40,393 nucleotides of DNA, taken from contig JAQBNG010000161.1 of NCBI GenBank assembly GCA_028288675.1, positions 1 through 40,393 on the forward strand, in the 5' to 3' direction. Origin of the DNA: Flavisolibacter sp. Its GTDB lineage: Bacteria; Bacteroidota; Bacteroidia; Chitinophagales; Chitinophagaceae. Of this stretch, positions 3,453 to 40,393 are shown piece after piece; position 1 is the stretch's first letter; every line of letters begins with the position of its first letter. The translations under genes and the position numbers were made by a program. Below the pieces are notes generated by a model. It saw only the letters and a list, made by a program, of their open reading frames with translations, was not told the DNA's origin and ran no database searches.

Positions 3453-3510
3453 CACCCTGAAAATGAAAAGCATCTGTTTTAAAACGGGTAACTTTCTTAA
3501 AATTATCTAA

Positions 3511-5019
<1,509 letters not shown>

Positions 5020-6001: not shown

Positions 6002-7885
6002 ATGAATCGCACACTCTTGTTTCTATTTTTAGTGATTTGCTACTCCAACGTTTTTGCCCAAATCAGGAAACTAACTGTGGAAAGCAGCATAACAGGTGTA
6101 ACTGTTTTTTCTTCAGGTGCGCAAATTATTCGCACCGCCAACATATCTGTATTACCTGGAAGATCCGAAATTGTATTCAATGGATTAAGTAATCAACTGG
6201 AACAACAAAGCCTGCAACTGAAAGCTGATGCTAACATTACCCTGCTCTCTGTGCAAGCGGTAAAAGATTTTGGAAGCCAGCGAAAATTAGAAGGTGATGA
6301 AAGAACACTGATTGATAAAAGAAGTGAATTGCTGGATAAAATTGGAAGTGATAGCCGCTTGTTGCAGGTATATAAAAAAGAAGAAGAGATGCTCGTCAAG
6401 AACCAATCGATTGGTGGACAAACCGGTGTAAAGACCGAAGAATTAAAACTGGCCCTGGACCTGCACCGGGCAAGGATGACAGAGGTGTTACAAAAACAAA
6501 TGGAGATTGAAAAGCGAATTGCCGCAGCGCAAAACGAACTAACAAAAGCAGGACTGCAGTTAACGGAAATAGGTAAGAAAAGAGACAGCGTAAACTACAC
6601 TGTTACAGCACTCATCGATAGTAAAACGCCGCAGGCTATAAAGTTTGATCTGATTTATACGGTGAAGGATGCAGGGTGGTTTCCTACATATGATGTTCGG
6701 GTAACGGATGTAACAAAGCCACTAAATGTTTTAATGAACGCTAACGTGTTTCAGCGGAGCGGCGAAACATGGAAAGATGTTGCTATCCAGTTAAGCACAG
6801 GCAATCCCGGTGATAATGCCACACCATCGGAGCTGCAGCCATGGATGCTGGGGTATTATGACCCTTCAACTGCGTGGATGCGGCAACAGGCAACTATTCC
6901 GGGAGTGATAAGTGGAAGGGTATTAGATGAAAGCGGCAATCCAATTAATGGGGCAAGTATTTATGTGAAAGGAATTAACCAGGGAACATCATCAGATGTA
7001 AATGGATTTTTTAAATTACAAAACATGGCTTCCAACCGTGCTATCGTTATTTCATCGGTTGGGTACAACAGCAAAGAAATTGCGGCAAAGCCAGGATATA
7101 TCAACATTAGCTTGCAGGCAAATAAGCAGTCATTGGAAGAAGTAGTAGTTGTTGGATATGGAGCACAGAGAGATCAGGATGATGCAGCTCAGAAAAAAAT
7201 TATGATTAGAGGAGCTGCCTCTCTTCAAGGTCGAGTGCCAGGAATTGAAGTCGTTGCCACTACTACCCAATACCAATCTACAACCACCGTTTATAAAATT
7301 GACGAAAAATACACTTTAGAGACTGATGGTAAAACAACAAAAATCGGAATCAAAAACATCGACATTCCGGCCCTGTATGAATATATCTCCACGCCTAAAG
7401 TGGATCCCTCCGCCTTCCTCACTGCAAAGGTTCTTAACTGGCAGGATTATGATCTGCAATCTGGTGAAACCAATCTCTATTACGAGGGAACTTTCCTCGG
7501 CAAAACATATTTAGACCTCTCCACAGTTGGCGATACGCTGTCGCTTTCCCTGGGTAAGGATAACAGTATAAAAGTGTCAAGAAAATTGTTGAAAGAATTC
7601 AGCTCAAAAAAATTCATTGGCAGTAACCGAACCGATTCAAGAGAATATGAGATCACGGTGATGAACACGAAAAGAGTTCCGGTATCAATTATTGTAAAAG
7701 ACCAGTTCCCTGTTTCTGTTGTCAAGGAAATTAGTGTAGATGATGTAACAGCACCGGACGCGCAAATTGAAAGAGAAACAGGCATCGCTACCTGGAATCT
7801 TTCTTTACAACCGGGCCAGGAGAAGAAAGTGAAAATTGGATATAGTGTGAAATACCCTAAGGATAGGAGAGTGGTTTTGGAGTAA
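6002..7885 (+). CDS. DUF4140/DUF4139 protein with inserted SusC-like segment
   Basis: A 627-residue secreted protein (signal peptide ending near NVFAQ, residue 20). Residues about 28-90 match the DUF4140 amino domain, about 100-195 look like a coiled coil, and DUF4139 begins near 205 (FDLIYTVKDAGWFPTYDV). DUF4139 is interrupted at about 299-420 by a carboxypeptidase-D-like regulatory domain (ISGRVLDESGNPINGASIYV). Fragments typical of the SusC plug region follow: EEVVVVGYGAQ at 379-389 and LQGRVPGIEVV at 408-418. DUF4139 then resumes to the end. Such proteins are annotated as mucoidy inhibitor A-like, but their function in Bacteroidota is not known. It stands alone, followed by a long hairpin at 7894-7953. 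The domain calls are by eye and fairly confident; the role is unknown. Confidence 0.85.
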   Translation: MNRTLLFLFLVICYSNVFAQIRKLTVESSITGVTVFSSGAQIIRTANISVLPGRSEIVFNGLSNQLEQQSLQLKADANITLLSVQAVKDFGSQRKLEGDERTLIDKRSELLDKIGSDSRLLQVYKKEEEMLVKNQSIGGQTGVKTEELKLALDLHRARMTEVLQKQMEIEKRIAAAQNELTKAGLQLTEIGKKRDSVNYTVTALIDSKTPQAIKFDLIYTVKDAGWFPTYDVRVTDVTKPLNVLMNANVFQRSGETWKDVAIQLSTGNPGDNATPSELQPWMLGYYDPSTAWMRQQATIPGVISGRVLDESGNPINGASIYVKGINQGTSSDVNGFFKLQNMASNRAIVISSVGYNSKEIAAKPGYINISLQANKQSLEEVVVVGYGAQRDQDDAAQKKIMIRGAASLQGRVPGIEVVATTTQYQSTTTVYKIDEKYTLETDGKTTKIGIKNIDIPALYEYISTPKVDPSAFLTAKVLNWQDYDLQSGETNLYYEGTFLGKTYLDLSTVGDTLSLSLGKDNSIKVSRKLLKEFSSKKFIGSNRTDSREYEITVMNTKRVPVSIIVKDQFPVSVVKEISVDDVTAPDAQIERETGIATWNLSLQPGQEKKVKIGYSVKYPKDRRVVLE

Positions 7886-7893
7886 AGGACTTT

Positions 7894-7953
7894 ATAAAAG
7901 CTGGTCAACAAAAAATGTTCACGATGACTTTGTTTTTGTTGACCAGCTTTTAT
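7894..7953 (+). terminator. 21-bp perfect inverted repeat after the DUF4139 gene
   Basis: The 21-nt arm at 7894-7914 (core GCTGGTCAAC) is exactly reverse-complemented at 7933-7953, with an 18-nt loop. It begins 8 nt after the stop codon, so it probably ends or protects this transcript. The tail after the stem is not T-rich, so an mRNA-stabilising hairpin is as likely as a true terminator. Confidence 0.55.
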
Positions 7954-7958
7954 ACTAC

Positions 7959-7986
7959 TATGAAGCGTCCCTTGCGACGCTTCATA
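7959..7986. repeat. 11-bp hairpin TATGAAGCGTC / GACGCTTCATA
   Basis: TATGAAGCGTC (7959-7969) pairs perfectly with GACGCTTCATA (7976-7986) around a 6-nt loop. It lies between the 21-bp hairpin and the left end of the composite repeat and may belong to that element. Confidence 0.6.
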
Positions 7987-8287
7987 GCCGCTGCATTACA
8001 TGAGAATTGCTTTTTGGCAGGTTGTGTCGTTTGTCATCCCGAGGCAGGAGGGATCTTTGAACTGAATTGTAAACGACTCCTGTAAAAAGTAAAACTATTA
8101 GCAGCATTCATCAATCTACGATCCACAGATCCCTCCTGCGTCGGGATGACAAGGGAGAGGGTTAATGATGGCAGTTAGGTTGAATGTTGGAAGAGAGGTT
8201 AAATAATGCTGAATAGAATTACAAAAAGTACAAGAGTGCGACGCAACAAAAGCTAGATAGATATTCTGTCCGCCGGGTACAAAAGAA
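7987..8287 (+). repeat. Composite dispersed repeat, copy A
   Basis: About 300 bp without coding potential that recurs in reverse orientation at 40072-40393. It has three parts. First is a left flank starting GCCGCTGC. Second is a palindromic core whose ends are GTCATCCCGA (8033-8042) and TCGGGATGAC (8141-8150), with inner arms AGGAGGGATCT (8046-8056) and AGATCCCTCCT (8127-8137). Third is a right part with GTACAAGAGTGCGACGCAAC and TGTCCGCCGGGTACAAAA (about 8228-8284). The two copies align through all three parts at roughly 80-85 percent by eye. The right part alone recurs at 12056-12113 and 36350-36412. It fills most of the 494-bp gene-free stretch after the DUF4139 gene. Confidence 0.8.
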
Positions 8288-8315
8288 AAACTCAATCATT
8301 GTCAATGATTGAGTT
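8280..8315 (-). terminator. Terminator of the polysaccharide utilization locus
   Basis: AACTCAATCATTG (8289-8301) is reverse-complemented at 8303-8315. On the minus strand the stem runs into TTTTTCTTTTG. It lies 65 nt past the stop of the last gene of the locus. Its T run is also the right end of the composite repeat. Confidence 0.82.
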
Positions 8316-10919: not shown

Positions 10920-12026
10920 CTATTCCCCTGCAGGAACCGTAATTGGAGTGTTGGTTCTAACCGGCGTTCCAAAATTGGGCGTACCATCAGAATTAAACGT
11001 AAATTTCTGCATACGCGGACTTCTTGCATCGCCGCATCCGTTGCCGTTCATCGGCGCTGCATTTGCATGATATATTATCCAGTTCTCGCTTCCATTGGGC
11101 GATGTAAAAAAGCTGTTATGCCCCGGACCATAAACATTATTAGCCGGGCTTTTTTGAAAAACAGGCGTGGTAGATTTTGTCCAGTCGGTTGCCACTAACG
11201 GGTTGCCGCCATCTTTTAAAGTAAGCATACCTAAACCATATTCATCCGTCCAGCATCCACTGGCGCTGTAAACCATAAACACTTTGCCTGCCGGGTTTTT
11301 TAAAATTTCCGGCGCTTCGTTTACATCCGGGTCTCCCTGTGTTTCCCAACTAAATGTTGGAGTGCTAAGTAAGGTACGGGAGCCTGTTATTGTCCATGGG
11401 TCTGCCATTTTTGCTATATAAATATTCTGTTTATCATTAACAGCAGCAGCACGTCCGCTCCAGATAAAATAGTTGGTTCCATTGTATTCAAGCACCGTTC
11501 CATCAATGGCCCAAAAGTCATTAGCTGCATCGTAAATGCGGGCTTTATCCAGCCATGTTCCGGTAGTAGGATCGGCACTGCTGTTTTCTAACACATAAGT
11601 GCGTTGAGTAGCAAAAGGATCGCCTGCTACGGAACTGCCATCACCAGCCGTATAATATATGTACCACTTGTTATTGATAAAAAACATTTCAGGCGCCCAT
11701 AAGTTTTCTTTATGGTTGCTGATACTAAGTGGTGTGAAGACTGTTAGATAAGGTGCTGATGCTAACTTACTCATGGCCGTTGTTTTCCAAAGCCCAATGC
11801 GGTTGCCCAACGTATGCGTGTAATAGTAGATGTTGTCCTTCTTTATTACATAAGGGTCGGGCCCCGAAGGCAGTAGTGGATTAGTAAATGTATTACCGGC
11901 CGGTAGTGGATTGGTACCGCCTCCGCCATTGTCGCCGCCACCTTTTTTACAACTAACATTTATTAGCAGCGAGCTGCTAATAAAAAATGTGATCAGTAGA
12001 TTTTTACTTAAAAATTTATTTATCAT
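10920..12026 (-). CDS. Glycoside hydrolase family 43, lipoprotein
   Basis: A 368-residue protein with a lipobox INVSC (Cys26), followed by a Gly-rich linker and a family 43 propeller. Catalytic residues by motif are Asp57 (GPDPY), Asp175 (FWAIDGTV) and Glu237 (VNEAPE). LWAPEMFFINNKWYIYY matches the same blade as in the GH43 gene at 8380-9450, and both end in a PRMQKFTF/PHMQKISW block. The pair probably arose by duplication and diverged: this one is tethered by lipid, the other has an ordinary signal peptide. A role in removing arabinose side chains is inferred from the family. The upstream spacer holds a fragment of the composite repeat. Confidence 0.92.
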   Translation of the reverse strand: MINKFLSKNLLITFFISSSLLINVSCKKGGGDNGGGGTNPLPAGNTFTNPLLPSGPDPYVIKKDNIYYYTHTLGNRIGLWKTTAMSKLASAPYLTVFTPLSISNHKENLWAPEMFFINNKWYIYYTAGDGSSVAGDPFATQRTYVLENSSADPTTGTWLDKARIYDAANDFWAIDGTVLEYNGTNYFIWSGRAAAVNDKQNIYIAKMADPWTITGSRTLLSTPTFSWETQGDPDVNEAPEILKNPAGKVFMVYSASGCWTDEYGLGMLTLKDGGNPLVATDWTKSTTPVFQKSPANNVYGPGHNSFFTSPNGSENWIIYHANAAPMNGNGCGDARSPRMQKFTFNSDGTPNFGTPVRTNTPITVPAGE

Positions 12027-12055: not shown

Positions 12056-12113
12056 TCTTTTGTACCAGGCTTTTCTACTACTACCCAGCATCGTTGCGTC
12101 GCACTCTTCAAGG
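12056..12113 (-). repeat. Repeat fragment, copy C (right half only)
   Basis: On the minus strand it reads GAAGAGTGCGACGCAAC and ends in CCTGGTACAAAAGA. This matches the right part of the composite repeat at 8222-8287 but with a diverged middle. It lies upstream of the lipoprotein GH43 gene, and its end is about 30 nt from that start codon. Confidence 0.65.
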
Positions 12114-12226: not shown

Positions 12227-13336
12227 TTATTTGCTCTTCTTTCCCGTCACCATTTTTATATACTCCACTTCCTCGGGCTTGTACGCTGTTCCATCCCTTC
12301 TAAAAATATCATGGAACCAAAGATCCGGTTCAGCTGTGTATTGTTTATCCCAGCTATTCCATGGATAAATCGTTTGCGATTTACCATCAACAAAGCCCCA
12401 GTTGTACATACCTACTTTGTATGTTTTTGCGATGCCTAACGTTGGTTTAAAAAAGCTGCTATTACCACGGGCCATATACTCCGTGCAAATAATGGGACGA
12501 TTATAACGCTGCAACCATTTAATGCGGGTAACAAATTCGGAAGCGCTGTCGTAGTTATGAAACGAAATAATGTCGGAGTTATTCAACTGCACTTTCCAAA
12601 TGGGTTTTAAGCTATCGGCATGGCTCCAGTTGCCCCACCAAACACCGGATGTCAGTGGCTGCACCGGCTTTTGCGAACGTGCCCAATCGAACGTTTTCTG
12701 CAGCAGTATCAGTACGTTGTATAATTTATTCCTGGGTTCTTGTTTATTGTATTCGCCACCGTTCATGTTATCGGGTTCGTTCCAAACATCCCATCCCCAG
12801 ATGCGGGTATCGTTCTTAAAATACCGCACTACATCTTTTACATATTTTTCAAGGCGAGGGTGCGAACTGTCATTGCTGAGCGCTATTGCTCCCGGGCTTT
12901 GCACCCAGCCGCTGTTATGCAGAAAAGGCTTGGGATCGCGTTGTTTACCTGCTACAGGATTAGGATCCCATACAGAATCGAAAAATACAAGAAGAGGTTT
13001 TATTTTATGGCGTGAAGCTATTTGGAGGAATGTATTAATTCTTTGCAGAAAGCCTGCACTGTCTTGTTGATAAGCCAGGTCATGCAAAAACACACGCATG
13101 GTGTTCATGCCTAAACTTTGTGCCCAGCCCAGTTCTTTACTAATAGTTGCGGTATCAAAGGTATCAGCCTGCCACATTTCTAATTGGTTGATAGCAGTGG
13201 AAGGAAGAAAGTTGGCTCCGACTGGCCAACCCTGGGCTGCATACCAGGTTTTTGCTTTGGCTGCCGGCCAAATGTTTTGCGATGATGCATTTAAGAAGAT
13301 GATGAAGGCGAAAGAAAAGAAGATGAATTTCCTCAT
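12227..13336 (-). CDS. GH5-like (clan GH-A) glycoside hydrolase, secreted
   Basis: A 369-residue protein with a signal peptide ending near NASSQ (residue 20) and a TIM-barrel hydrolase domain. The acid/base is Glu187 in WDVWNEPDN and the nucleophile is Glu286 in PIICTEYMAR, the spacing expected for retaining clan GH-A enzymes. GMNTMRVFLHD forms an early strand. Relatives are often labelled cellulase-family or 1,4-beta-xylanase, so a backbone-cleaving role on xylan or another beta-glycan is plausible but unproven. Its ATG lies about 14 nt after a terminator-like hairpin that follows susD, so its expression probably depends on read-through. Confidence 0.88.
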   Translation of the reverse strand: MRKFIFFSFAFIIFLNASSQNIWPAAKAKTWYAAQGWPVGANFLPSTAINQLEMWQADTFDTATISKELGWAQSLGMNTMRVFLHDLAYQQDSAGFLQRINTFLQIASRHKIKPLLVFFDSVWDPNPVAGKQRDPKPFLHNSGWVQSPGAIALSNDSSHPRLEKYVKDVVRYFKNDTRIWGWDVWNEPDNMNGGEYNKQEPRNKLYNVLILLQKTFDWARSQKPVQPLTSGVWWGNWSHADSLKPIWKVQLNNSDIISFHNYDSASEFVTRIKWLQRYNRPIICTEYMARGNSSFFKPTLGIAKTYKVGMYNWGFVDGKSQTIYPWNSWDKQYTAEPDLWFHDIFRRDGTAYKPEEVEYIKMVTGKKSK

Positions 13337-35124: not shown

Positions 35125-36243
35125 TTGAGATTTAAGAGACCCATATACCGCATTTTATTTTTCGCTGCATGGATAGTAGTACTTGGTGGTATTGTTATGC
35201 TGTTGATTGCTGCTAACCGCAGAAGCAAAGAGCATTTATGCAAAGGAGTTGAAGTGACAATCAACGGCGGTGGTGATAAGATTTTTGTGAAGAAGGATGA
35301 TGTACAAAAGAGCATTGAAATAGCTGCAAAGGGTTCTTTGACAGAAAAGCAATTTGGCGAGATCAACCTTACGCTGCTTGAAAAAACACTTGAAGCGAAC
35401 CGGTGGATACGGGATGCGGAATTGTATTTTGATACGAAAGATATATTGCATGTATCCATATCGGAGAGGAAGCCGGTGGCAAGAGTATTTACAACAGCCG
35501 GAGCTTCGTTTTACATGGATAGTGCTGGCTACACAATGCCGCTGTTAGAAAATTATAGTCTGAAACTACCAGTAATTACAGGCTTCACACCTGTAAAAAA
35601 ATGGACTACCAGGGATAGTGCTATAGTAAGAGGGATTAAAAATATTACCCGGTATATTGAGACCCACCCTTTTTGGAATGCACAAATAGGACAGATAGAT
35701 ATTACTCCGGCTGGCAGGTTTGAGCTGGTACCTGTTATCGGTAGTCATATTATAAAATTGGGTGACGGTGAAGATGTAGAGGATAAGTTAACCCGGCTCT
35801 TCATTTTTTATAAAGATGTTTTACCAAAGGCCGGTTTTGCAAAATACAGTGCCCTGGATGTTCAGTTTGATGGACAGGTAGTAGGGGTGAAGGGCGACCT
35901 GCAATCGCCGATTGATTCTATCCAGTTGCAAAAAAATATCCTGGAGCTGATGCGCAAAAAAGCAACGGAACAAGAAGCAGAAGGGATGTTGCCTGATGAA
36001 AGTTTACCGATAGCGATAGCACCGGTTGTGGACATTAAAAAGGATTCAGGTAAAGTGAGTGTAACAAAAAAAACAATATCAATTCCTGTAAAAAAACTAT
36101 CCAATCCACCAGCTTCTGAGAAAAACTCTATTCAAAAATCCAATGTTGTAAAACCGGTTGTCAACAAACCGAATCCTGATAAACCAAAAGAACAAAACAA
36201 GAAAGAGCAGAAAGCAAAAGCGGTAATGCCGAAGAGGGAATGA
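35125..36243 (+). CDS. ftsQ: Cell division protein FtsQ/DivIB
   Basis: A 372-residue bitopic division protein. A short basic amino end is followed by a membrane helix at about 9-30, a POTRA-like domain (GVEVTINGGGDKIFVKKDDV) and an FtsQ beta domain (WIRDAELYFDTKDILHVSISERKPVARVF). It recruits FtsL and FtsI to the septum. The start is a TTG at 35125, giving RFKRPIYRIL before the helix. The last 90 or so residues form a Lys-, Pro- and Gln-rich tail not present in E. coli FtsQ, ending in KPKEQNKKEQKAKAV. Sequence similarity is modest, but position and topology agree. A hairpin follows the stop. Confidence 0.93.
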   Translation: MRFKRPIYRILFFAAWIVVLGGIVMLLIAANRRSKEHLCKGVEVTINGGGDKIFVKKDDVQKSIEIAAKGSLTEKQFGEINLTLLEKTLEANRWIRDAELYFDTKDILHVSISERKPVARVFTTAGASFYMDSAGYTMPLLENYSLKLPVITGFTPVKKWTTRDSAIVRGIKNITRYIETHPFWNAQIGQIDITPAGRFELVPVIGSHIIKLGDGEDVEDKLTRLFIFYKDVLPKAGFAKYSALDVQFDGQVVGVKGDLQSPIDSIQLQKNILELMRKKATEQEAEGMLPDESLPIAIAPVVDIKKDSGKVSVTKKTISIPVKKLSNPPASEKNSIQKSNVVKPVVNKPNPDKPKEQNKKEQKAKAVMPKRE

Positions 36244-36247
36244 ATTT

Positions 36248-36327
36248 CTGAACCGGGACAAGTAGGATGGATGTGATTTTGGGATAAGATTACACGCATC
36301 CCATTTAACCCAAAAATCCCAGTTCAG
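36248..36327 (+). repeat. Long imperfect hairpin in the ftsQ-ftsA spacer
   Basis: CTGAACCGGGA (36248-36258) pairs with TCCCAGTTCAG (36317-36327) with one mismatch, and the inner bases GGGAT/ATCCC also pair. It begins 4 nt after the ftsQ stop. It resembles a type of intergenic palindrome frequent in Bacteroidota. No T run follows. Confidence 0.55.
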
Positions 36328-36349
36328 ACGATTTGTAGAGTAGAGAACA

Positions 36350-36412
36350 AAGTGTACAAGAGTGCGACGCAACAGAAGCTGGATAGTAGCACTGTCCGCC
36401 GGGTACAAAAAA
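36350..36412 (+). repeat. Repeat fragment, copy D (right half only)
   Basis: GTGTACAAGAGTGCGACGCA through TGTCCGCCGGGTACAAAA, close to the right part of the composite repeat at 8222-8287 and well conserved. The left parts of the element are absent here. It lies in the spacer between ftsQ and ftsA. Confidence 0.75.
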
Positions 36413-36490: not shown

Positions 36491-37867
36491 ATGAACAACG
36501 AGCAACCAATTATTGTGGGGCTTGACATCGGAACCACCAAAATCGCCGTCATTGCCGGACGCAAGAACGACTTCGGCAAGCTGGAAATTTTGGGTTTTGG
36601 CCGGGCCAATTCCAATGGCGTCAAACACGGCCAGGTACTAAACATTGATGAAACTATCAAAGCAGTAAAGCAAGCGTTGGATGCCTGCTATTCTTCTAAC
36701 CCAAGCCTTGAAATTACAGAGGTGTATGTAGGCATTGCGGGGCATCATATAAAGAGCCTTCAAACCCGCGGCGATATTGTTCGCCAGGATACGGAGAACG
36801 AGATTTCGCAAAAAGAAATTGATCAACTAATCGCTGACCAGTTTAAAACCTACATTCCTGCAGGCGACCAGATCATTGATGTAATTCCACAGGAGTACAC
36901 CGTGGATAATTTTCAAAACATTCAGCACCCGATTGGCTTTAGCGGGGTAAAAGTTGGCGCTAATTTTCACATCATCACAGGTGATAAAAATGCGATCCGC
37001 AACATTAAGCGTTCAGTAGAAAAAAGTGGTTTGGCCACAAAAGACCTGGTATTGCAACCCCTGGCTTCGTCTGCCGCTGTAATGGCGCAGGAAGACCTGG
37101 AGGCAGGTGTTGCCATAGTAGATATTGGTGGTGGTACAACCGACCTTGCTATTTTTTACGAAGGCATTTTGAAGCATACAGCCGTTATCCCTTTTGCCGG
37201 TGAGAACATTACCAACGATATTAAAACAGGATTAGGCGTATTGAAAACACAGGCCGAACAAATGAAAGTTCAGTTTGGCAGTGCATTGGCCAACGAAGCA
37301 AAAGCAAATGCGTATATCACCATTCCGGGTTTGCGTGGTATGCCCCCTAAAGAAATTTCTGTAAAAAATCTGGCGCACATTATCCAGGCACGTATGAGCG
37401 AGATACTGGATTTTGTGACCTACCATTTAAAACAGGTAGGGCTGGATAACAAAATGCTGAATGGTGGCATCATTCTTACTGGTGGTGGGTCGCAGCTTAA
37501 GCACCTGATTCAGTTAACAGAATATGTTACCGGGTTGAATGCACGGATTGGTTTGCCTAACGAGCATTTAGCGGCCAATCATATTGATGAATTAGCGAAG
37601 CCGACGTATGCAACCTGTTTAGGATTGATTTTAAAAGGGTATGATGATTTTGAACATGACCGCAAGAAGTTTGAGCAGGACTTTAAGCATGTGGCCGTAC
37701 CGGAAGGGTTGAAAGCTTCAGACATGCAGGAAGAGGAATTGGTGGAAGATGATAATGGAACAACAGTTGTGAGAACTGCGCCACGTAAAAGCATGTCGAG
37801 CTTTTGGAGAAAATTTCAAAATAGTTTGATTGACATTTTTAAAGAAGAAGAAGACGAGAAACTGTGA
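36491..37867 (+). CDS. ftsA: Cell division protein FtsA
   Basis: A 458-residue actin-like ATPase that anchors FtsZ to the membrane. Phosphate-1 is VGLDIGTTKIAVIAGR at the amino end, the SHS2/1C region has LEITEVYVGIAGHHIKSL, phosphate-2 is GVAIVDIGGGTTDLAIF, and the adenosine block is NGGIILTGGGSQLKHL. The carboxyl end (SFWRKFQNSLIDIFKEEE) looks like the amphipathic membrane-targeting helix, with basic and aromatic residues on one face. It is separated from ftsQ by about 250 bp holding repeats, an unusual gap for this cluster. Identification is secure. Confidence 0.98.
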   Translation: MNNEQPIIVGLDIGTTKIAVIAGRKNDFGKLEILGFGRANSNGVKHGQVLNIDETIKAVKQALDACYSSNPSLEITEVYVGIAGHHIKSLQTRGDIVRQDTENEISQKEIDQLIADQFKTYIPAGDQIIDVIPQEYTVDNFQNIQHPIGFSGVKVGANFHIITGDKNAIRNIKRSVEKSGLATKDLVLQPLASSAAVMAQEDLEAGVAIVDIGGGTTDLAIFYEGILKHTAVIPFAGENITNDIKTGLGVLKTQAEQMKVQFGSALANEAKANAYITIPGLRGMPPKEISVKNLAHIIQARMSEILDFVTYHLKQVGLDNKMLNGGIILTGGGSQLKHLIQLTEYVTGLNARIGLPNEHLAANHIDELAKPTYATCLGLILKGYDDFEHDRKKFEQDFKHVAVPEGLKASDMQEEELVEDDNGTTVVRTAPRKSMSSFWRKFQNSLIDIFKEEEDEKL

Positions 37868-40071: not shown

Positions 40072-40393
40072 TTTTGTACCCGACGGACGGAATATCTATT
40101 TGGCTTCTCTTGCACAGTTTATGCTGAGGCTGCCGAAGTACACTCTTGTACGCTTTGTAATTCTATTGGGCATTGCTTAACTACTCTTCAAGCATTCAAC
40201 CTACTTACTATCATAAAGCTTCTCCCTTGTCATCCCGACGAAGGAGGGATCTATGGATTGTGCTTTGATGAATGTTGCCACCAGTTTTACTTTATACAGT
40301 GGTCGTTTACAATTCAGTTCAAAGATCCCTCGTGCCCCGGGATGACAAGCACCCTACTGCCAAATAGCAATTCTTACGTAGCGCAGCGGCAAT
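40072..40393 (-). repeat. Composite dispersed repeat, copy B (runs off the window)
   Basis: Read on the minus strand it follows the order of copy A at 7987-8287: GCCGCTGC flank, palindromic core with GTCATCCCG and CGGGATGAC ends, then AATAGAATTACAAA, GTACAAGAGTG and CGTCGGGTACAAAA. Between GTACAAGAGTG and the final GTCCG block it carries about 30 bp more than copy A. Homology extends to the last base of the window, so the full length is not known. With the terminator it fills the 470 bp after ftsZ. Confidence 0.8.

Follow-up and report, generated by a model that had tools for sequence, protein, structure and literature searches.

We found that the two copies of a non-coding repeat in the analysed window (the whole stretch of 40,393 nucleotides from Flavisolibacter sp.) belong to one dispersed element, which we are inclined to read as a nested miniature element: a shell holding a REPIN-like dimer, moved in trans by single-strand HUH/Y1 transposases, with insertion at hairpin centres. 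More specifically, the outer layer would be a palindromic shell of about 155 bp composed of two inverted, diverged arms, and the inner layer a REPIN-like dimer of TGTC-tagged REPs placed at the symmetry centre of the shell. The shell itself would be a non-autonomous repeat located between genes, in some cases directly adjoining an intrinsic terminator's T-tract. In the most likely history, REP-type hairpins inserted at the tips of pre-existing hairpins, an insertion that HUH/Y1 single-strand transposases (IS200-like or RAYT) may have performed in trans, and the shell-plus-REPIN composite would afterwards have spread as one unit.

A whole-genome search with the block aligned the reverse complement of 40072-40393 to 7984-8284 at 77% identity (260 bits, E = 9.7e-70), and the order of parts is identical in both copies (Table 1). 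These were the two regions that the preliminary description of this DNA had taken for copies of one non-coding repeat, rightly so on both points: no open reading frame (ORF) of at least 100 amino acids overlaps either copy, and both are located between ORFs. Its left boundary at 7987 was about 50 bp too far right and omitted the true left arm at 7934-7981. Copy 1 accordingly extends over 7934-8284 with imperfect inverted ends (TTTTTGTTGACCAGC...GGGTACAAAA), its arm limits being taken from a 38-copy alignment and profile matches. The dimer of copy 1 matches the REP2 profile at 114 bits and was also detected as inverted repeat I1; its two inverted REP motifs lie in 29-nt arms that are 93% complementary, with 64 nt between them. 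Alignment with empty shells assigns the last part of RI in copy 1 (TGCTGAATAGAATTAC) to the shell. Directly after the stop codon of ORF 6002-7885 begins a perfect inverted repeat formed by the left end of LA and a reversed copy of the same, the latter giving a match to the reversed LA profile at 7893-7913. Copy 2 is truncated within the element and has no left arm because the contig ends there. In several contigs the sequence stops within a copy of the element (the window at 40393, C158 at 1, C253 at 3267 and C141 at 9249), so that the repeat probably breaks the assembly.

Table 1. Parts of the element and related features in the window.
Feature	Position	Strand	Basis
Left arm (LA) of the shell, copy 1	7934..7981	+	Profile match, 46 bits
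Small palindrome within LA, copy 1	7958-7969/7976-7987	+	Inverted repeat I4
Inner left part (LI) of the shell, copy 1	7984..8020	+	Profile match, 36 bits; alignment
REPIN-like dimer, copy 1 (REP 8033-8056, spacer, inverted REP 8127-8150)	8031..8152	+	Pattern scan
Inner right part (RI), copy 1	8157..8224	+	Profile match, 57 bits
Right arm (RA) of the shell, copy 1; core TGCGACGCA, end GGGTACAAAA	8228..8284	+	Profile match, 55 bits; conserved in relatives
Intrinsic-terminator-type hairpin just beyond the right end	8289..8315	.	Self-complementary match; outside-end statistics
Perfect 22-nt inverted repeat: left end of LA and reversed copy of the same	7893..7954	.	I2, 100% complementary
RA, copy 2; core palindrome split by a 27-nt insert (40114-40140)	40072..40153	-	RA profile positions 17-57 at 40072-40113
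RI, copy 2	40155..40222	-	Profile match, 57 bits
REPIN-like dimer, copy 2	40227..40348	-	Pattern scan, profile match
LI, copy 2	40352..40393	-	Profile match, 54 bits
Further RA arm between ORF 35125-36243 and ftsA-type gene 36491-37867	36354..36410	+	55 bits; Pfam FtsA
Further, weaker RA arm between gene 12227-13336 (-) and GH43 gene 10920-12026 (-)	12058..12108	-	29 bits; Pfam

Across the genome, the search with the block returned 74 matching pieces, which we counted as at least about 40 separate places (the best 40 of 232 candidates were scored). These places carry common ends and unrelated flanks. The preliminary description had argued for a single element rather than chance motifs and had proposed a genome search with alignment of the ends; the result bears it out, with many places instead of two and ends that agree without random breaks. 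At just 72-84% identity, the long matches to copy 1 reveal no recent movement, and the copies are old.

The shell recurs as a palindrome of about 155 bp, with arms LA and RA inverted and diverged, and is found either empty or with various palindromic cargos at its centre. Of the two classes suggested beforehand, MITE-like and REP/BIME-type, each applies in part, the first to the palindromic shell and the second to the dimer inside it. We use our own labels for the cargos (c1, c2, c3, c5 and c10), c1 being the GTCATCCCGA REP dimer. Reading several alignments in combination, we sorted 42 two-armed shells of the own genome into 25 with the c1 dimer, one with the dimer and c2, 5 with c2, 4 with c3, one with another insert and 6 empty, classes that do not give genome-wide proportions because the loci were fetched partly for holding the dimer. 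The arms in these shells are paired as LA-RA in 35 cases, RA-RA in 7 and LA-LA in none, compared with 20.4, 14.3 and 7.3 expected at random (p = 3.7e-6), and the LA+RA pairing holds regardless of cargo. It is mainly because of this non-random pairing that we treat the shell as a unit. Arms are also present without the c1 dimer, and a sequence model counted at least 150 of them in the own genome, at least 150 in G003, 55 in G006, 52 in G014, 15 in G025, 4 in G005 and none in G015.

Another, rather unlikely, reading takes the RA arm for the actual unit, namely a one-sided repeat of about 80 bp that inserts beside hairpins, with terminators on its outside and REPs on its inside; a palindromic REPIN that gains an arm on each side would then only resemble a shell with cargo. 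Loci from G003, G006, G008 and G014 speak for it, since the RA arm is mostly single there and a pair was found in 2 of 59 arm loci (a sixtieth locus proved to be a Y1 gene); a direct comparison gave a partner for none of 58 arms in those four genomes, but it is insensitive because it also missed these two pairs. Outer ends adjoin terminator-like hairpins and inner ends adjoin several kinds of REP palindromes, as this reading has it, whereas the non-random pairing of the arms goes against it, and so do the cargo-free shells: besides the six of the own genome, many of the 34 inverted arm pairs of less than 620 bp in public loci are without cargo by eye. Moreover, the inner shell sequence reaches the same centre with or without cargo.

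The cargos are distinct palindromic sequences. Cargo c2 consists of the small palindromes GCCTGAAGGGCTT, CCGGTAAAACCGG and CAACCCC..GGGGTTG in inverted order, c3 of ACCACGGAGGCACAAAG.. and c5, seen by eye in two G003 shells, of GGCTCC..GGAGCC, while c10 is a CCTTCTCC..GGAGAAGG hairpin located between RI and RA in C110, C143, C68, C146 and C22. The composite can be aligned with the six empty shells and with differently loaded ones up to one central point, near GCATTA/TAATGC. Insert positions were obtained by global alignment to the empty consensus, which gave an insert call for 37 of the 42 shells and none for 5; 23 shells with alignments split over several positions were left out of the position count. 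In the 14 single-insert shells, the inserts are at positions 86, 81, 53, 61, 78, 81, 78, 77, 82, 76, 80, 77, 33 and 81 of 159, that is, at 76-86 in 11 of the 14, where the shell centre is at 79.5 of 159 nt. For loaded shells alone the figure is 10 of 13, the rest being at 33, 53 and 61 (C154, with an 18-nt insert at position 80, was counted as empty). These positions are not independent events because the copies share ancestry; at least three unrelated cargos are involved. In the own genome, 49 of 81 RA arms have cargo motifs, which were picked after viewing the sequences, no more than 200 bp away on the inner side, and none of the 81 has them on the outer side; the background for these motifs is 287 of 5000 random 200-bp pieces of relatives.

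The arm cores are themselves palindromes and are also split by other hairpins. The RA core TGCGACGCA, which hardly varies among 58 arms from relatives, is split by the 27-nt insert in window copy 2, C17, C11 and C22 (and, by eye, C132) and by another hairpin in C76 and C234, and the LA core is split by AGTTTATCCTGAG..CGAAGGG-type sequence in C129, C234, C240 and C152. The central position of the cargos and the splitting of the cores are consistent with hairpin tips as the target of insertion. Within the window, the inner side (36248-36328) of the RA arm upstream of the ftsA-type gene resembles by eye the outer flank of cargo c2. This arm with its c2-like remnant (36248-36410) is just upstream of the ftsA-type gene, with an ftsZ-type gene next, and is thereby located within a cell-division gene cluster.

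The c1 cargo comprises two GTCATCCCGA-type REPs in inverted orientation. Allowing up to two mismatches, the 24-nt REP motif has 45+41 sites in the whole genome, compared with 0+0 for a reversed control pattern. The 86 monomers fall into 56 sites, namely 30 strict dimers, 21 degenerate dimers and 5 single REPs, and all strict dimers but one (29 of 30) have their two REP starts separated by 93-96 nt. A shell arm of at least 20 bits lies within 400 bp of 47 of these 56 sites, on both sides of 25, and 9 have none; by chance, 150-400 arms would bring 2.7-7.2% of the genome within that distance. The dimer resembles REPINs, in the parts of their description relevant here (Bertels and Rainey, 2011, PMC3116915), in having two inverted short palindromic motifs with a near-constant spacer, able to form a hairpin, in an extragenic position (judged from the window copies) and in many copies. 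It differs in being mostly nested in a shell and TGTC-tagged rather than GTAG-tagged, and no RAYT gene was found beside the REP: none of 32 Y1 loci, out of 59 genus matches, has a GTCATCCCGA REP beside the gene. A second likeness is to CGTC-tagged REPs, as far as the pertinent parts of a 2013 survey describe them (Di Nocera et al., 2013, PMC3733652). Both show a tag next to the AT pairs of the stem (here TTGTC-ATCCC..GGGAT), inverted dimers and no dedicated transposase, CGTC-type REPs being without an assigned one in those parts of the survey. By reading, however, the unit ATCCC-GACGCAGGA-GGGAT has a shorter perfect stem (5 bp instead of 8-9 bp), a longer loop (9 nt instead of 4-5 nt) and a CTT tail instead of CCA. 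In other genomes, related REPs occur as dimers or singly with no shell arm detected, at L173 and L204 (G013), L174 (G025) and L175 (G055).

A hairpin of 8 bp or more is present in the 50 nt outside 19 of 126 ends, 16 of these at a distance of 0-3 nt, compared with 2 of 124 control segments 100-150 nt out (Fisher p = 1.2e-4) and 0 of 126 shuffled segments. The outside hairpins differ from place to place and hence are not the element's own sequence. A run of four T is found in the last 10 nt at 43 of 126 ends (10 of 124 in the control, 10 of 126 shuffled; Fisher p = 3.9e-7), a figure that is partly the element's own sequence because the element end is T-rich. We take this as a preference of the shell for terminators as sites; alternatively, shells and terminators may both accumulate in 3' intergenic space. 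Several shells of the own genome that are empty or hold c3, for example at C10, C34, C90, C109 and C222, have AAAGAACT or AAAGAGCT about 20-25 nt beyond their right end.

Such surroundings would also suit a structured RNA, in which the copies are transcribed 3' hairpins (terminators or mRNA stabilisers) under selection, copied by gene conversion and not by transposition. Both window copies fold strongly, forming long hairpins as single-stranded DNA with z scores of -4.46 and -3.67, each better than 100 of 100 shuffles, and the copies lie near gene ends and terminator-like hairpins. We nevertheless regard this explanation as improbable, given that all four arrangements relative to neighbouring genes are seen in all three samples and that cargo varies freely. 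The window has no Rfam match at gathering score, and a consensus RNA fold of 58 arms contains three nearly invariant pairs and no covariation; the last 20 nt of the arm look hairpin-like with compensating changes by eye, for which the program gave no support. A strand-specific 3' UTR element was ruled out, the orientation not being fixed.

Target-site duplications, which the preliminary description had proposed to look for, do not exceed what mismatched flanks give: a common word of at least 7 nt flanks none of 41 shells, where 0.8 would be expected. A non-autonomous element of IS200/IS605 type would leave no such duplication and would have subterminal hairpins; the arms do contain small palindromes, but these lack covariation support. 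The missing duplication weighs against a classical MITE derived from an insertion sequence of DDE type bounded by terminal inverted repeats, its parent lost or missing from the assembly, an origin for which the inverted terminal ends, small size, lack of coding capacity and many copies could be cited and which we consider highly improbable. The 118 public loci contain 52 outward-facing arm pairs, 21 of whose intervals measure 300-2600 bp and hold 26 listed ORFs; 21 of the 26 were scanned against Pfam and gave no transposase family, four of them no family at all. The arm pairs of the fetched loci gave no autonomous element sharing these ends, and the transposase elsewhere that had been suggested to mobilise the element did not materialise, in the DNA examined, as a transposase or full-length element with these ends. 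A 1.5 kb arm pair in the own genome was rejected as a candidate autonomous element, as it encloses a transaldolase-type gene instead. At L349, two outward-facing arms separated by 935 bp (3479-4413) surround an HNH endonuclease gene, which may be due to chance.

The nested reading would call on enzymes encoded elsewhere, and the own genome has four Y1 genes, one of them broken. The proteins of C153 and C11 match the IS200/IS605 transposase model at 68.5 and 76.3 bits (cut-off 55), and the protein of C69 matches the REP-associated tyrosine transposase model at 103.1 (cut-off 80). Both the C153 gene, associated with cargo c2, and the C11 gene, associated with c5-type palindromes, bear the Y---Q--HH motif that marks TnpA-Y1 subclass 1.2. 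Palindromes of c2 type flank the C153 gene on either side, and further out, upstream of the gene, follows an RA arm; a second shell arm was not found at this gene. Of the 59 genus matches, 32 Y1 loci were analysed (L045, L046 and L205-L232 among them), which our motif rule divided into 21 of subclass-1.2 type, one RAYT and 10 without class. The same small palindrome flanks 16 of the 21 subclass-1.2-type genes on both sides, compared with 57 of 420 mismatched pairs, although the loci are not fully independent because several come from one genome. In the relevant parts of the classification of Quentin et al. (2018, PMC6006769), no REP is listed for this subclass, so that the flanking palindromes depart from what is given there. 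Enzymes for cargos c2 and c5 are thus probably present in the genus. For c1, no enzyme was found among the Y1 genes of the own genome and the 32 genus loci, and the Y1 genes may be unrelated to the shell itself.

The shell bears on how REPs, which are widespread small bacterial repeats, choose their sites. Palindromes enclosing REP dimers are described, in the pertinent parts of the 2013 survey (PMC3733652), for A. variabilis (GTAG-15), T. roseum (GTAG-23) and H. neapolitanus (CGTC-1), with hundreds of copies of the small target palindrome in T. roseum and no REP-free palindrome found in A. variabilis or H. neapolitanus. The present REPs are similarly placed mid-way in a larger palindrome. Unlike those cases, which in these parts have one REP kind per palindrome, one long shell here occurs REP-free and with several unrelated cargos; our addition to that work is this variety of cargos, or their absence, in one shell. 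No description of the present shell was found in the open-access literature searched. A shell seen both empty and loaded with several kinds of REP provides natural before-and-after pairs, and such shells make insertion at hairpin tips testable. As a tentative generalisation, hairpin tips could be preferred landing sites of REP-type elements, with single-strand transposases placing one hairpin in another's loop on the lagging strand and palindromes thereby becoming nested, and IS200-like Y1 enzymes of subclass 1.2 could mobilise REP-like palindromes in Bacteroidota. If true, landing at hairpin tips would explain the spread of TGTC/CGTC-type REPs, for which there is no known transposase.

A further difference from the palindromes treated in those parts of PMC3733652 is that the arm is found in many genera of one family. 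The arm pattern occurs in at least 118 stretches of the genome collection, and all 118 listed bear names of Chitinophagaceae or wider Bacteroidota, with Segetibacter, Foetidibacter, Pinibacter, Limnovirga, Lacibacter, Paracnuella, Ferruginibacter and Flavisolibacter among the matches listed. A 353-nt query matched 23 of 58 genomes, the own genome included. At the flanking gene, identity to the closest genus genomes does not exceed about 74%, so no empty chromosomal site is comparable. In the four genus genomes G003, G006, G008 and G014, cargo motifs keep less strictly to one side of the arm (inner in 28 of 58, outer in 16 of 58), the reason being that two of these genomes have the arm within a larger unit bounded by another REP. 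More specifically, the arm in G006 and G014 is inside a unit of about 300 bp bounded by CCCCCTGTCCCCCGGTGGGGG-type repeats, and the nesting order therefore varies.

Other combinations are visible by eye in JANXWM01, a metagenome-assembled Chitinophagaceae genome, where two shells (L287 and L296) enclose another TGTC-type dimer, GTCATTGCGAGG.., and a short pair of the same set (L337) encloses c3-like sequence. Many of the fetched JANXWM01 stretches of up to 8 kb (L238-L349) contain several arms, the stretches having been chosen for holding one. At L371-L399 (G014 and G006), units of about 300 bp have inverted CCCCCTGTCCCCCGGTGGGGGAACTTAGG ends and contain one RA arm together with a TGCCTG..CAGGCA hairpin.
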